Origin: Cryobacterium algoricola
GTDB taxonomy: Bacteria; Actinomycetota; Actinomycetes; Actinomycetales; Microbacteriaceae
DNA length: 64,000 nt
Assembly (NCBI RefSeq): GCF_004402485.1
Contig: NZ_SOFG01000011.1
Span: 558,001-622,000 of the forward strand
Reading direction: 5' to 3'
Notes under the pieces: generated by a model
What the model was told of the DNA's origin: nothing
The model's database searches: none
The model's input: the letters and a program-made list of their open reading frames with translations, nothing else
Translations under genes and position numbers: made by a program
Shown: positions 112-3,629 of the stretch, in pieces
Numbering within the stretch: the first letter of the stretch is position 1
Layout: each line of letters starts with the position of its first letter

Positions 112-854
112 GCGCAGTCCACGCCGCACCGGCCACGGATGCCGCGCCGGTCGCGGTGAAGACGGCGCTCGTGCTGCGCCACGACGCCACCATCCACCTC
201 GGCAACCTCGAACCCGTGCTCCGCGAGCACGGCTACACCGTGGACTACGTCGAGATCCTCAGCGACGACCTCGGCACGATCGACCCGACCGCCGCCGACC
301 TCGTCGTCGTGCTCGGCGGGGAGATGGGCGCGTACGAGACCGAGGCCTTCCCCGCCCTCGCCGACGAGATCTCGATCCTGCGGAACCGGCTCGCGGCCGA
401 ACGACCGGTGTTCGGCGTGTGCCTCGGCGCCCAGCTGATGGCCAACGCGCTCGGCGCCAAGGTCTACCCCGGGCCGACGAACGAGATCGGCTTCCGAACG
501 GTTGAACCGACGGGTCTCGGCGCCACCGGGCCGCTCCGCCATGTGGCCGGCGTCCCGGTGCTGCAGTGGCACAGCGACACCTTCGACCTTCCGGAGGGCG
601 TGACGCGCCTGGCCGGTTCGCCGCAGTACGGTAACGAGGCGTTCGGCATCGGCGACTGGGCGCTCGCGGTGCAGTTCCACCCCGAGGTGACACCGGCCAT
701 GCACGAGGTCTGGCTGCGCGCATCCGCCGCGGAACTCACCGAGGCAGGCCTCGACCCGGAAACCCTGCGCGCCGAGCGCGACCTCTACGCCGGTTCGATG
801 CAGGATGCCTCCCGCGCCTTGTTCAGCGAATGGCTCGACGGGCTGAATCGCTGA
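108..854 (+). CDS. class I glutamine amidotransferase (GMP synthase-like)
   Basis: A 248-residue stand-alone class I amidotransferase of the kind annotated as 'GMP synthase-glutamine amidotransferase'. It should hydrolyse glutamine and deliver ammonia to an acceptor that cannot be read from the sequence. The nucleophile elbow FGVCLGAQ puts the catalytic Cys at about residue 105, and QFHPEV supplies His191 and Glu193 of the triad. There is no ATP-pyrophosphatase domain, so this is not full GuaA. The start overlaps the stop of the preceding partial gene (ATGA). The 3' end overlaps the convergent tadA gene by 32 bp. Family assignment is firm; the substrate is unknown. Confidence 0.88.
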   Translation: MSAVHAAPATDAAPVAVKTALVLRHDATIHLGNLEPVLREHGYTVDYVEILSDDLGTIDPTAADLVVVLGGEMGAYETEAFPALADEISILRNRLAAERPVFGVCLGAQLMANALGAKVYPGPTNEIGFRTVEPTGLGATGPLRHVAGVPVLQWHSDTFDLPEGVTRLAGSPQYGNEAFGIGDWALAVQFHPEVTPAMHEVWLRASAAELTEAGLDPETLRAERDLYAGSMQDASRALFSEWLDGLNR

Positions 855-1302
855 AGAATTCCCGGAGCAGGGCGCCGCACTCCTCGGCGTCGACCTCCCC
901 GTAGACCTCGGCGCGATGGTTGAGCCTGCGGTCGCGCAGCACGTCGTAGACGGAACCCGCTGCGCCCGCCTTCTCGTCCCAGGCGCCGAAGACGACGACC
1001 GGGATCCGTGCGGCGAGGATCGCACCGGCGCACATCACGCAGGGCTCGAGCGTGACGACCAGAGTGCAGCCGGTCAGGTGCCAGTCGCCGAGGGCGGCAG
1101 CCGCTGCCCGGATGGCGACGATCTCGGCGTGACCGGTCGGATCCTGCCGTGCCTCCCTGTCGTTCCGGCCGCGGCCGATGACGACGCCGTCGGGATCGAG
1201 CACGACCGCGCCGACCGGGACATCGCCCGTCTTGAGGGCCGCGCGGGCCTCCCGGAGGGCAAGCCGCATCCATTCGCGGTGCTCGCGATCCTGCTCGCCC
1301 AT
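823..1302 (-). CDS. tadA: tRNA-specific adenosine deaminase TadA
   Basis: A 159-residue cytidine/deoxycytidylate deaminase-fold protein, expected to deaminate the wobble adenosine A34 of tRNA-Arg(ACG) to inosine. The zinc and catalytic signature is complete: GHAEIVA gives His58 and Glu60, and EPCVMC gives Cys88 and Cys91. The start follows a strong Shine-Dalgarno (GGGGGAGG about 8 nt upstream), which favours this ATG over a 24-codon longer frame. The likely substrate, tRNA-Arg(ACG), is encoded near 15.1 kb. The gene is divergent from upp with only 33 bp between the starts and converges on the amidotransferase gene. Confidence 0.93.
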   Translation of the reverse strand: MGEQDREHREWMRLALREARAALKTGDVPVGAVVLDPDGVVIGRGRNDREARQDPTGHAEIVAIRAAAAALGDWHLTGCTLVVTLEPCVMCAGAILAARIPVVVFGAWDEKAGAAGSVYDVLRDRRLNHRAEVYGEVDAEECGALLREFFSDSARRAIR

Positions 1303-1323
1303 CCGGATACCTCCCCCAGCTAG

Positions 1324-1335
1324 TAGATTGAGCCT
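1324..1335 (+). promoter_or_regulatory. -10 box of a probably leaderless upp promoter
   Basis: TAGATT at 1324-1329 fits the actinobacterial -10 consensus TANNNT and lies 6 nt before the upp ATG. Transcription should therefore begin at or next to the start codon. There is no Shine-Dalgarno in front of upp, which agrees with leaderless translation. Confidence 0.5.
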
Positions 1336-1968
1336 ATGCGAGTCCATGTAGCCGACCATCCGCTCATCACCCATAAACTGACGGTTCTGCGGGACAAACG
1401 CACCTCCTCACCGCTCTTCCGGTCCCTCGTGGAGGAGCTGATGACGCTCCTCGCCTACGAGGGAACCCGCGGGGTACGGGTCGAAGACATTACCGTCGAG
1501 ACCCCGGTCGGGCTGGCCCACGGGGTGCAGATCAGCGACCCGAAGCCGCTCGTCGTGCCGATCCTGCGCGCCGGTCTCGGCATGCTCGAGGGCATGGTCA
1601 AGTTACTGCCGACCGCAGAGGTCGGATTCCTCGGCATGGCCCGCAACGAGGAGACCCTCCAGCCGACCACGTACGCGGAGCGCCTGCCCGACGATCTCTC
1701 CGACCGCCAGTGCTTCGTGCTCGACCCGATGCTCGCCACCGGCGGCTCGTTGATCGCGGCCATCCAGTTCCTCTTCGACCGCGGCGCCGTCGACGTCACG
1801 GCCATCTGCATCCTGGCGGCGCCCGAGGGCCTCGCCGCCGTCGAGGCGGCGTTCCCCGGTCGTGAGGTCTCGATCATCCTCGGCGCCGTCGACGAACGCC
1901 TCAACGAGCTCGGTTACATCGTTCCCGGACTCGGCGACGCCGGCGACCGTCTCTACGGACTCGTCTAG
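1336..1968 (+). CDS. upp: uracil phosphoribosyltransferase
   Basis: A 210-residue cytosolic pyrimidine-salvage enzyme that makes UMP from uracil and PRPP. The length is the usual one for Upp. Diagnostic segments are [11 protein letters not shown] near residue 75, the PRPP-binding loop DPMLATGGS from about residue 130, and the uracil-binding end [11 protein letters not shown]. The ATG lies 6 nt after a TAGATT -10 box and has no Shine-Dalgarno, so the mRNA is probably leaderless. It is a single gene divergent from tadA. Confidence 0.96.
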
Positions 1969-2187
1969 AACACACTCCGCCCGTTCCGCCGGTTGACACC
2001 ACGCCGGCGGAACGCGCAGGTCCTGCGACCATCGAGCGTTGCAGCGCAGCAGGTTCACGAATCTTTGATGAAGTGCCTTTTCATCGAGGAACATGTGACG
2101 AAGTGCCCATCGGGCACGGATCCTCCCGCTCGACCCGACCGGGCCGAACGTGATGCAGCAGGCTTCCCGGCTTCCTGCGTCACAAAG

Positions 2188-2224
2188 TTGACACACGCCG
2201 TAACAGTGGGCTTTACTCACAGTT
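2188..2224 (+). promoter_or_regulatory. promoter TTGACA-18-TTTACT of the Cys-rich leader
   Basis: A consensus -35 (TTGACA, 2188-2193) and a -10 (TTTACT, 2212-2217) are 18 bp apart. The -10 lies 7 nt before the ATG at 2225, which places the transcript start on or next to that ATG. No Shine-Dalgarno is present. Confidence 0.6.
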
Positions 2225-2326
2225 ATGACAACCACTCACCGCCCCCTGACCTCCCTCGAGGCCCTTGGGACTGCCGGCATGATGATGCCCGGCATGCGCG
2301 CCGAGTGTTGCCGAATGTGCCGCTGA
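2225..2326 (+). CDS. 33-residue Cys-rich leader peptide (predicted)
   Basis: A short frame beginning at a probable leaderless ATG, 7 nt after the -10 of a good promoter. It encodes 33 residues with MMM near the middle and ends CCRMCR, giving three Cys, two Arg and a Met in the last six codons. It has no membrane segment and resembles no enzyme. It sits about 190 nt upstream of a winged-helix regulator, and the space between contains repeated GAACC/GGTTC segments that can fold in two exclusive ways. Actinobacteria are known to use short Cys-rich upstream frames as sensors of cysteine supply. Such a role here is inferred. Confidence 0.5.
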   Translation: MTTTHRPLTSLEALGTAGMMMPGMRAECCRMCR

Positions 2327-2362
2327 ACCGCGACACCCTCGCCGAGCTCCCCTCTCGCCTCC

Positions 2363-2487
2363 GAACCCCGTGCAGTAGCACCCCGCGGTTCTGAGTCGGT
2401 CGGTTGAACTCCCGGAGCCTCTCCAACGCTCCGCACCCGGTCACAACGACCATTGCCGAACCCGCAACCGCGCAGAGCGCCGGGTTC
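2363..2487 (+). promoter_or_regulatory. attenuator-like set of alternative hairpins
   Basis: Four complementary segments follow the leader peptide: A, GAACCCCG (2363-2370); B, CGCGGTTC (2384-2391); C, GAACCCG (2458-2464); D, CGGGTTC (2481-2487). A:B and C:D can pair, with C:D a perfect 7-bp stem, or alternatively B:C with A:D. No U-tract follows, so control of translation or of Rho would be more likely than an intrinsic terminator. The regulator's Shine-Dalgarno (AAGGA, 2507-2511) lies 20 nt after D. Confidence 0.35.
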
Positions 2488-2519
2488 ACCCCAGCATCAT
2501 CACCCCAAGGACTCCTGCC

Positions 2520-3221
2520 ATGTCGCTCGCACACATTGACACCGCCCGCTCCATCCACAACGCCCGCCCGGCACTCGCCCTGGCGCCGGCCCCCGCCGCT
2601 CCCCGCATCCGCGCCGTGCCGGAGGGCACAGAGGCCAGAGGCTTCGTGCTCTACGTCGGCATCGACGAGGCCAAGGCCGCCGCCGCCGGCACCTCGCTGC
2701 ACCGCATCGTCGAGGCGCTCAAGGCCCTCACCGAGGAACTGGCCCCGAACGCAGAGACCCACGCCGCAGTGGCACTCGCCCCGGCGGGGGCAGGCGGCCG
2801 CGACGTCGACGTCGTGCGCCTCGCCCTCCAGGACCCGGCCGCCCTGGCCCGCCACCGTACGGTGGCCGACCCGGACCGTGCCGCCGGCGGCGTGGTCGTG
2901 GACATCTCCCGCAAGCGCGTGGTGCTCGACAACGAGACCGCGGCCTTGACCTACAAGGAATTCGAACTCCTGCAGTACCTCGTGCTGCGTGAAGGCCGCA
3001 CGATCGAGCGTGCCGAGCTCATCGAAAAGCTCTGGGACGCCGCCGACGAGGAAGACGCTCCCAACGAGCGCACCATCGACGTGCACGTGCGCCGCCTGCG
3101 CGCCAAGCTCGGCCGCTACGAAGACATCGTGCGTACCGTGCGCGGCGTCGGCTACCGCTTCGACCGTCACGCGGATGTCTCGATCCGCCAGTCGACGACG
3201 CCGAGCCCCGACGTCTTCTAG
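2520..3221 (+). CDS. winged-helix (OmpR/PhoB-type) transcriptional regulator
   Basis: A 233-residue DNA-binding protein. The C-terminal half, from about residue 122 to 218, is a Trans_reg_C winged helix: LTYKEFELLQYLVLREG, then the recognition region ERTIDVHVRRLRAKLG, then the wing VRTVRGVGYRF. The N-terminal 120 residues are Ala/Pro-rich at first, then a small alpha/beta region (FVLYVGIDEAKAAA), and they lack the Asp of a receiver domain. It is therefore not a classical response regulator. The start has AAGGA 8 nt upstream. The 550-bp upstream gap carries the leader peptide and alternative hairpins, suggesting post-initiation control. The regulon is unknown. Confidence 0.82.
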   Translation: MSLAHIDTARSIHNARPALALAPAPAAPRIRAVPEGTEARGFVLYVGIDEAKAAAAGTSLHRIVEALKALTEELAPNAETHAAVALAPAGAGGRDVDVVRLALQDPAALARHRTVADPDRAAGGVVVDISRKRVVLDNETAALTYKEFELLQYLVLREGRTIERAELIEKLWDAADEEDAPNERTIDVHVRRLRAKLGRYEDIVRTVRGVGYRFDRHADVSIRQSTTPSPDVF

Positions 3222-3629
3222 GTTCTCCCCCGTACCCCGGGCCCCGGGCCCCGCACCGACTCTCATCCGCAGTGAGTTGCGGACACAGCACCGTCGCCGC
3301 GCGCACGAACGTGTCTTCACCGCAACTGAGAATGCCCGAGGCCTCTGCGCGGGCGTGGGCGGATTCGTGACGCGGACCGGGCGTTAACGTGATTGAGGGC
3401 CGGTCGTAGAGGCTTAACGACCGACCCTCTTCCCTTGCACCAAGAGTGTCCTGCAATCACATTTCGCGTCTTCCGCCACAGCAAACGGTTGACGCACAAC
3501 GAATATATAACGAACCGGTAACGGAAAGCTAGCTGTGCGGCTGTATTCTTTCTGCGAATTCGCCAAGAGCCGTGCAGCGAGGGCTGGCGTAGATTCTCTA
3601 GTCTGGAGAGACACGACTGAGGAGGACCG
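3222..3629. other. intergenic region upstream of the MarR gene
   Basis: No convincing gene is seen in these 408 bp. The stretch becomes AT-richer from about 3470 (AATATATAACG near 3500) and probably holds promoter elements. A 35-bp inverted repeat at 3395-3429 has 12-bp arms, GAGGGCCGGTCG against CGACCGACCCTC with one mismatch, around an 11-nt loop. It is followed by a weak pyrimidine run and could be a terminator for the upstream regulator or a protein site. Confidence 0.45.
3595..3611 (+). promoter_or_regulatory. putative MarR auto-operator over a -10 box
   Basis: The inverted repeat TCTCT-7 nt-AGAGA overlaps the -10-like hexamer TAGTCT (3599-3604), about 25 nt upstream of the GTG start of the MarR gene. 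MarR proteins commonly bind such palindromes over their own promoter. Assignment to this MarR is inference. Confidence 0.3.

Follow-up and report, generated by a model that had tools for sequence, protein, structure and literature searches.

A conserved Cys/Met-rich upstream frame as a probable attenuator of a sulfur-free OmpR-type regulator in Cryobacterium and related bacteria

Analysis of a 64,000-nucleotide stretch of the Cryobacterium algoricola genome (hereafter the window) revealed a gene for an OmpR-type transcription regulator without cysteine or internal methionine, preceded by a short frame that is rich in both residues. This leader is real, conserved and functional-looking, and the comparative evidence makes it probable that the 5' end of the mRNA would act as a Cys/Met-supply attenuator of the sulfur-free regulator. 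The features concerned are as follows, with positions counted in the window and the basis of each given in brackets.

2179-2204, forward strand: direct repeats GTCAC / GACAC / GTAAC at steps of 11 and 10 nt, across the promoter (sequence)
2188-2217, forward strand: promoter, TTGACA, 18 nt, TTTACT (sequence; spacing to the ATG conserved)
2225-2326, forward strand: putatively leaderless leader frame of 33 codons, MTTTHRPLTSLEALGTAGMMMPGMRAECCRMCR (37/37 Cryobacterium genomes; 131 distinct leaders)
2272-2294, forward strand: in-frame hairpin with its loop within ATGATGATG (2279-2287) (MFE against nulls)
2306-2326, forward strand: leader core TGT TGC CGA ATG TGC CGC TGA (CGA in 131/131 leaders)
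2344-2411, forward strand: hairpin H1 past the stop codon, GAGCTC (2344-2349) with GAACTC (2406-2411) (anchored permutation)
2458-2487, forward strand: terminal hairpin GAACCC / GGGTTC (C:D) before the Shine-Dalgarno sequence (C:D-like pairing in 30/129 loci)
2507-2511, forward strand: Shine-Dalgarno sequence AAGGA of the regulator (sequence)
2520-3221, forward strand: regulator of 233 aa, OmpR-type winged helix (Trans_reg_C), no Cys or internal Met (Pfam, composition)

The initial annotation had described a promoter, an ATG, a 33-codon frame ending in CCRMCR, a Shine-Dalgarno sequence and the regulator, and all of them are found in the window sequence where it had placed them. The -35 element TTGACA occupies 2188-2193 and the -10 element TTTACT 2212-2217, the ATG at 2225 lies 7 nt past the latter, and the peptide ends in CCRMCR at a TGA stop codon (2324-2326). 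The same order of promoter, ATG and frame was found upstream of the regulator in all 37 Cryobacterium genomes, a count made up of 30 out of 30, five more recovered by pattern and the last two, which have TTAACT as the -10 element. Across all leaders the distance from TTGAC to the ATG is 35, 36 or 37 nt in 4, 40 and 82 of 126 in-frame ATGs, respectively, which is what a transcript beginning on the ATG requires; because this spacing is conserved, the frame is labelled leaderless, and transcription would start on the leader ATG itself. A generic promoter scan of the leader region, which demands an A at position 2 of the -10 element, reported no promoters. The direct repeats across the promoter recur in most Cryobacterium promoters compared and form a candidate operator of the OmpR-type regulator; they overlap the promoter, as expected for an operator of this type, so that the regulator may control itself. 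A search of the own genome for a regulon with these repeats gave no convincing second site: the pattern occurs with no mismatches at the leader promoter only, and the total of 10 hits is near the control value of 7.

The regulator is present in the source genome (G000, 4.15 Mb) and in all 36 other Cryobacterium, with E-values of 1e-109 or better, in a search among relatives that covered 60 genomes, and it is 99% identical to the regulators of C. glucosi and C. breve. At a threshold of E 1e-40 it was detected in 42 of the 248 genomes sampled from the order and in 17 of 296 from the class, all belonging to families f1, f6 and f7; we take f6 to be Micrococcaceae and f7 Brevibacteriaceae. A total of 160 loci (L003-L162, including some duplicates) were read, of which 144 carry a leader with the Cys-Arg-Met ending. 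It is absent from 16 loci; three of these (L056, L087 and L135) have less than 60 nt of upstream sequence and twelve (L061, L070 and L151-L160) are f6 and f7 homologues. The sixteenth, locus L133 from Yonghaparkia, has a natural leader variant that has lost its Cys codons. The 144 loci correspond to 131 distinct leader contexts, 119 from Microbacteriaceae and 12 from f6, three of 134 contexts (L024 at 105, L027 at 103 and L050 at 954) having been dropped as not being leaders; genera with the leader include Leifsonia, Agromyces, Herbiconiux, Salinibacterium, Subtercola, Frigoribacterium and Mycetocola.

The 131 leaders end at the same position in TGA (58), TAA (57) or TAG (16), and their lengths differ by whole codons, 33 and 34 being the most frequent. 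The interchangeable stop codons and the codon-sized insertions and deletions indicate that the frame is translated. A conserved, translated frame with Cys codons at its end, lying before the regulator, had been expected from the window alone, and this expectation holds for the 37 Cryobacterium genomes and for the 131 distinct leaders. The leader is single copy in its own genome, the only other profile match having an E-value of 1.1; the peptide belongs to no family in NCBIfam or Pfam, and comparison of the leader region with Rfam gave five matches with E-values of 0.39 to 3.3 or worse, far below the gathering scores. A DNA match outside the locus in one genome (L002) lies inside the coding frame of another gene and was rejected as chance, and family-wide scans with a 12-base pattern and with TGYTGYTGY were too loose to use. 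In three f7 loci (L151, L153 and L154) inspected by eye, the regulator homologue is preceded by a different short frame near a TAATGA-like -10 element; this frame ends in CVRD, CVRG.. or a related sequence and has a single Cys close to its end.

The most conserved part of the leader is its end. Cys-Arg-Met followed by two codons and the stop was found in 130 of the 131 leaders (the exception is L067), and at least two Cys fall within the last eight codons in 129. Adjacent Cys-Cys occurs in 120 leaders and is thus not invariant; the core is rather Cys-Arg(CGA)-Met plus two codons and the stop. Nine leaders have a single Cys before the Arg, and all nine have a Cys after the Met; the remaining two without Cys-Cys are L065 and L079. 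In the latter, from C. cheniae, an insertion splits the core, giving CCRSAHCRMAR. The core Arg codon is CGA in all 131 leaders, against 129 of 4558 Arg codons (2.8%) in upp and the regulator gene at these loci, and TGT serves as the first Cys codon in 114 of 120 cases, against 32 of 245 nearby Cys codons. The motif search fixed TGY-CGN-ATG and allowed any CGN, so that these counts carry information on no more than the A of CGA, the Y and the flanking codons. The invariance of CGA and the preference for TGT mean that nucleotides or codons are kept, beyond the residues, and the codon or RNA sequence of the core is, by this comparison, constrained.

Two further readings of the core bear on this point. 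An arrest peptide, in which the chain ...C-R-M-x-x on a ribosome at the stop codon would bind a small ligand and stall, could account for the constancy of Cys-Arg-Met and of its spacing from the stop in 130 of 131 leaders, but a strict CGA is unexpected for arrest based purely on the peptide, and this explanation is considered unlikely. The frame might alternatively sense slowed translation in general, caused by ribosome inhibitors or a shortage of any tRNA, with Cys and CGA providing only a slow spot and the regulator responding to translation stress. The invariant rare CGA and the preferred TGT do point to slow decoding as such, and whiB7 is described as a regulator with an inducing upstream frame (PMC13236596); this reading nevertheless leaves unexplained why 129 of 131 leaders retain two or more Cys close to the stop and why the regulator is free of sulfur, and a general slowdown sensor is considered improbable. 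A response to Cys and Met supply remains the preferred reading of the core.

Why CGA is fixed was considered further. A downstream pairing partner of the TGTTGYCGAATG core was sought and rejected, as duplex energies were overall no better than with dinucleotide-shuffled spacers (median rank 0.49; 7 of 119 at or below 0.05), and no general downstream pairing partner for CGA was found in Microbacteriaceae. Five of the seven low-rank duplexes come from f6, the spacers of which carry GCATTCGA (loci L040, L041, L047, L050-L052, L055, L057, L065 and L068). The leader core contains its complement, TCGAATGC, and the two may form a switch specific to this family. The preferred guess is that CGA is fixed for slow decoding; CGA is decoded via wobble inosine, and this guess is weakened by the report that runs of CGA did not impede translation in Bacillus subtilis (both according to PMC10454642).

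Of the RNA structures in the transcript, those better supported by the comparison of sequences are the in-frame hairpin around ATGATGATG and the hairpin just past the stop. In each of the 69 distinct segments the arms of the former pair with one another, compensating changes giving codon pairs like GGC/CCC, GCC/GCC and GAC/TCG, and its summed MFE of -1034.9 over the 69 segments compares with -858.6 (sd 27.5) for a synonymous null and -921.4 (sd 15.2) for an arm-permuted null; the signal is significant in the sum, only 9 of 69 segments reaching p <= 0.05 singly. Hairpin H1 is a GAG..CTC helix with varying inner pairs, which in the window genome contains one C.A mismatch; its anchor was found in 58 of 118 non-redundant sequences, with a pairing extension of 135 against a permuted mean of 93.4 (sd 6.2, maximum 118 in 2000), relatedness among the sequences being ignored. 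A cruder test of H1 helix length was negative (9 of 118 at p <= 0.05, median 0.56), neighbouring start windows giving 1, 6 and 11 at this level. A further, putative small hairpin CCTC-CCTC-GAGG early in the leader frame (2250-2261 in the window) recurs in several relatives.

The initial annotation had proposed four GAACC/GGTTC segments, A to D, that would pair either as A:B plus C:D or as B:C plus A:D. Five such segments are in fact present, GAACC at 2325, 2363 and 2458 and GGTTC at 2387 and 2483, and the Shine-Dalgarno sequence does follow about 20 nt beyond the last of them. These pairings are found in the window, but comparison of the loci shows no conserved switch. Pairing of the A:B kind (GAACC..GGTTC within 100 nt past the stop) was found in 17 of 144 loci and is common only to the nearest relatives of the window and to an Agromyces-like group, in the latter at another position of the spacer, and the 30 loci with C:D-like pairing before the Shine-Dalgarno sequence are nearly all from Cryobacterium. 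Conserved mutually exclusive pairings of the trp type were thus not found at these loci, and among the upstream regions compared the terminal Cys codons were largely retained and the A-D pairings were not.

No terminator-like sites were detected in 2100-2560, and six T in any seven positions occur in 5 of 129 spacers. All 129 spacers contain more C than G (means 0.407 and 0.241), and that of the window is in the top 0.6% among 2554 windows of the same size. With no terminator and a C-rich, G-poor spacer, Rho-dependent and translational attenuation are both possible. The former may be formulated as a tnaC-like scheme in which a ribosome held at the stop codon hides a Rho-loading spacer and the hairpins play a minor part. 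It gains from the base composition of the spacers and from the constant gap of two codons between Met and stop in 130 of 131 leaders, and a Rho route has been proposed for mycobacterial cysteine leaders (PMC1262725); C-richness by itself is, however, no demonstration of Rho action, and the conserved spacer hairpins could hinder Rho. Rho-dependent attenuation is accordingly rated as a substantial possibility, somewhat short of even. As it concerns the coupling step, it is compatible with a Cys/Met attenuator.

The regulator carries a Trans_reg_C match at its C-terminus (79 bits against a Pfam cut-off of 26.2), and AGGA or GAGGT lies near its start in 99 of 105 non-redundant loci. Pfam revealed no receiver domain, and the N-terminal part has no Pfam or PDB sequence match; the structural model has a mean pLDDT of 67.8, its N-terminal part being of low confidence and uninterpretable. 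The genes downstream vary among genera. Upstream in the window lie a tadA-like gene (823-1374, reverse strand), which from its sequence motif we take to be the tRNA adenosine deaminase gene tadA, and upp (1336-1968, forward strand), which likewise precedes the regulator in f7 and in some f6 homologues. TadA makes the inosine that reads CGA, and the location of this gene near a CGA-bearing leader is probably a chance neighbourhood. A highly conserved candidate small RNA gene lies tail to tail with the regulator (3390-3530, reverse strand), with a TATATT-like -10 element and a terminator-like hairpin; its core was found in 58 of 117 loci tested, it has no Rfam match, and CGAATGTG is common to it and the leader core in some species.

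The sulfur content of the two products differs sharply. The 105 distinct leader peptides contain 309 Cys and 476 internal Met in 3512 residues (22%). In the regulators, a count that runs from the conserved core to the C-terminus and is independent of the choice of start codon gave no Cys or Met in any of 116 distinct Microbacteriaceae sequences (22,776 residues), and counted from the conserved MS/MT start, no Cys or internal Met occurs in 106 of 106 (25,518 aa); the two residues average 2.19% in 348 neighbouring proteins. An earlier in-frame start codon is present in 50 of the 116 loci, and when the longest possible frames are taken, 44 of 63 regulators are without Cys or internal Met. Among 138 neighbours of 200-280 aa only three lack both, one of which (L139) is the regulator itself, having passed the filter. 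The 11 f6 regulators contain 13 Cys or internal Met in 3112 residues. Homologues without the typical leader are sulfur-poor as well (L133, L221, L223 and L232; L224, without leader, has 5 Met), so that the trait is one of the regulator family, without strictly tracking the leader; judging from these sequences, the sulfur poverty of the regulator is older than, or independent of, this leader form.

The link to sulfur proposed by the initial annotation is supported by these data, and strengthened by a regulator free of Cys and Met. The same annotation had also mentioned a redox circuit, in which oxidation-prone residues would have been purged from the regulator to keep it working under oxidants and the leader would report thiol damage or loss of Cys. 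Loss of Cys and Met fits oxidation avoidance too, and composition does not separate the two; yet no sensor residue or redox motif was recognised in the regulator, which has no Cys, and the loci examined contained no oxidative-stress gene next to it, which leaves an oxidative-stress circuit an unlikely explanation. As to sulfur metabolism, the sulfate-assimilation (Cys) locus was examined in the own genome only, and there no Cys-Cys leader was found upstream of it and no link to the regulator. In L220, upstream of sulfite reductase/cysH at about 1560-1610, inspection by eye gave a candidate short frame, VDAARRIRVTLCYGA, that has a single Cys close to its end.

The Cys/Met-supply attenuator favoured here would operate in the following way. 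RNA polymerase would begin on the ATG of the short Met/Cys-rich frame, and ribosomes would translate it; a shortage of charged Cys-tRNA, possibly also of Met-tRNA, would make a ribosome pause at UGU-UGY-CGA-AUG-UGY near the stop. The pause might alter the fate of the C-rich spacer, either because Rho is blocked or because the downstream start site becomes accessible, and would raise the output of the regulator, which could still be made in shortage as it needs no Cys or Met beyond the initiator. Induction on sulfur shortage is preferred because a sulfur-free product remains makeable under such conditions. The regulator would then act on sulfur-related genes. An extended form, held tentatively and at less than even confidence, is a dedicated sulfur-starvation switch of Microbacteriaceae, with a Cys/Met-rich sensor, a purged regulator and pacing of the ribosome by the CGA set between Cys and Met, in which the regulator would govern sulfur supply globally and would be new to the literature.

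If true, this would name a sulfur-starvation regulator and its sensor for a large bacterial family, show cysteine-codon attenuation governing a transcription regulator and not a biosynthetic operon, and provide an extreme example of a protein with an amino-acid composition suited to the starvation to which it would respond. The fixed CGA codon also offers a sharp test of whether codon identity, and not the peptide, sets the response of the leader.

Among known systems, regulators of the GlnR/OmpR type share the C-terminal winged helix, the best fold match being the DNA-binding domain of GlnR with 44-46% identity, but no receiver domain was found in the regulator described here. We know of no Cys/Met enrichment in the upstream frame of whiB7/wblC. 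That system resembles the present one in that an upstream frame controls a transcription regulator in Actinobacteria (PMC13236596), and differs in the regulator family and the trigger. The candidate cys/cbs leaders of Mycobacterium, Propionibacterium and Bifidobacterium likewise have Cys codons near the stop and no terminator, and Rho was suggested for them, whereas in the account of PMC1262725 they precede sulfur-metabolism operons and here a regulator follows. A literature search, with most subscription journals outside its scope, yielded no description of the present leader, which is weak evidence of absence. The closest parallel, one of features, is provided by the leaderless cysteine-codon attenuators of mycobacteria (Canestrari et al. 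2020, as cited in PMC9031893, PMC13236596 and PMC9094748; earlier candidate cysteine leaders in PMC4633059 and PMC1262725). In these accounts a leaderless short upstream frame of an actinobacterium carries Cys codons near its end, as does the putatively leaderless frame described here, and a response of the mycobacterial frames to cysteine supply by attenuation has been proposed or shown. In contrast to the polycysteine frames as described there, the present frame has Cys codons on either side of an invariant CGA-ATG, not necessarily in a run. Its target is a transcription regulator whose own sequence lacks both Cys and Met, and conserved hairpins are located in and after the frame. The system is best read as a variant of the mycobacterial leaderless cysteine attenuators, novel in the unusual match between the composition of its sensor and that of its output.
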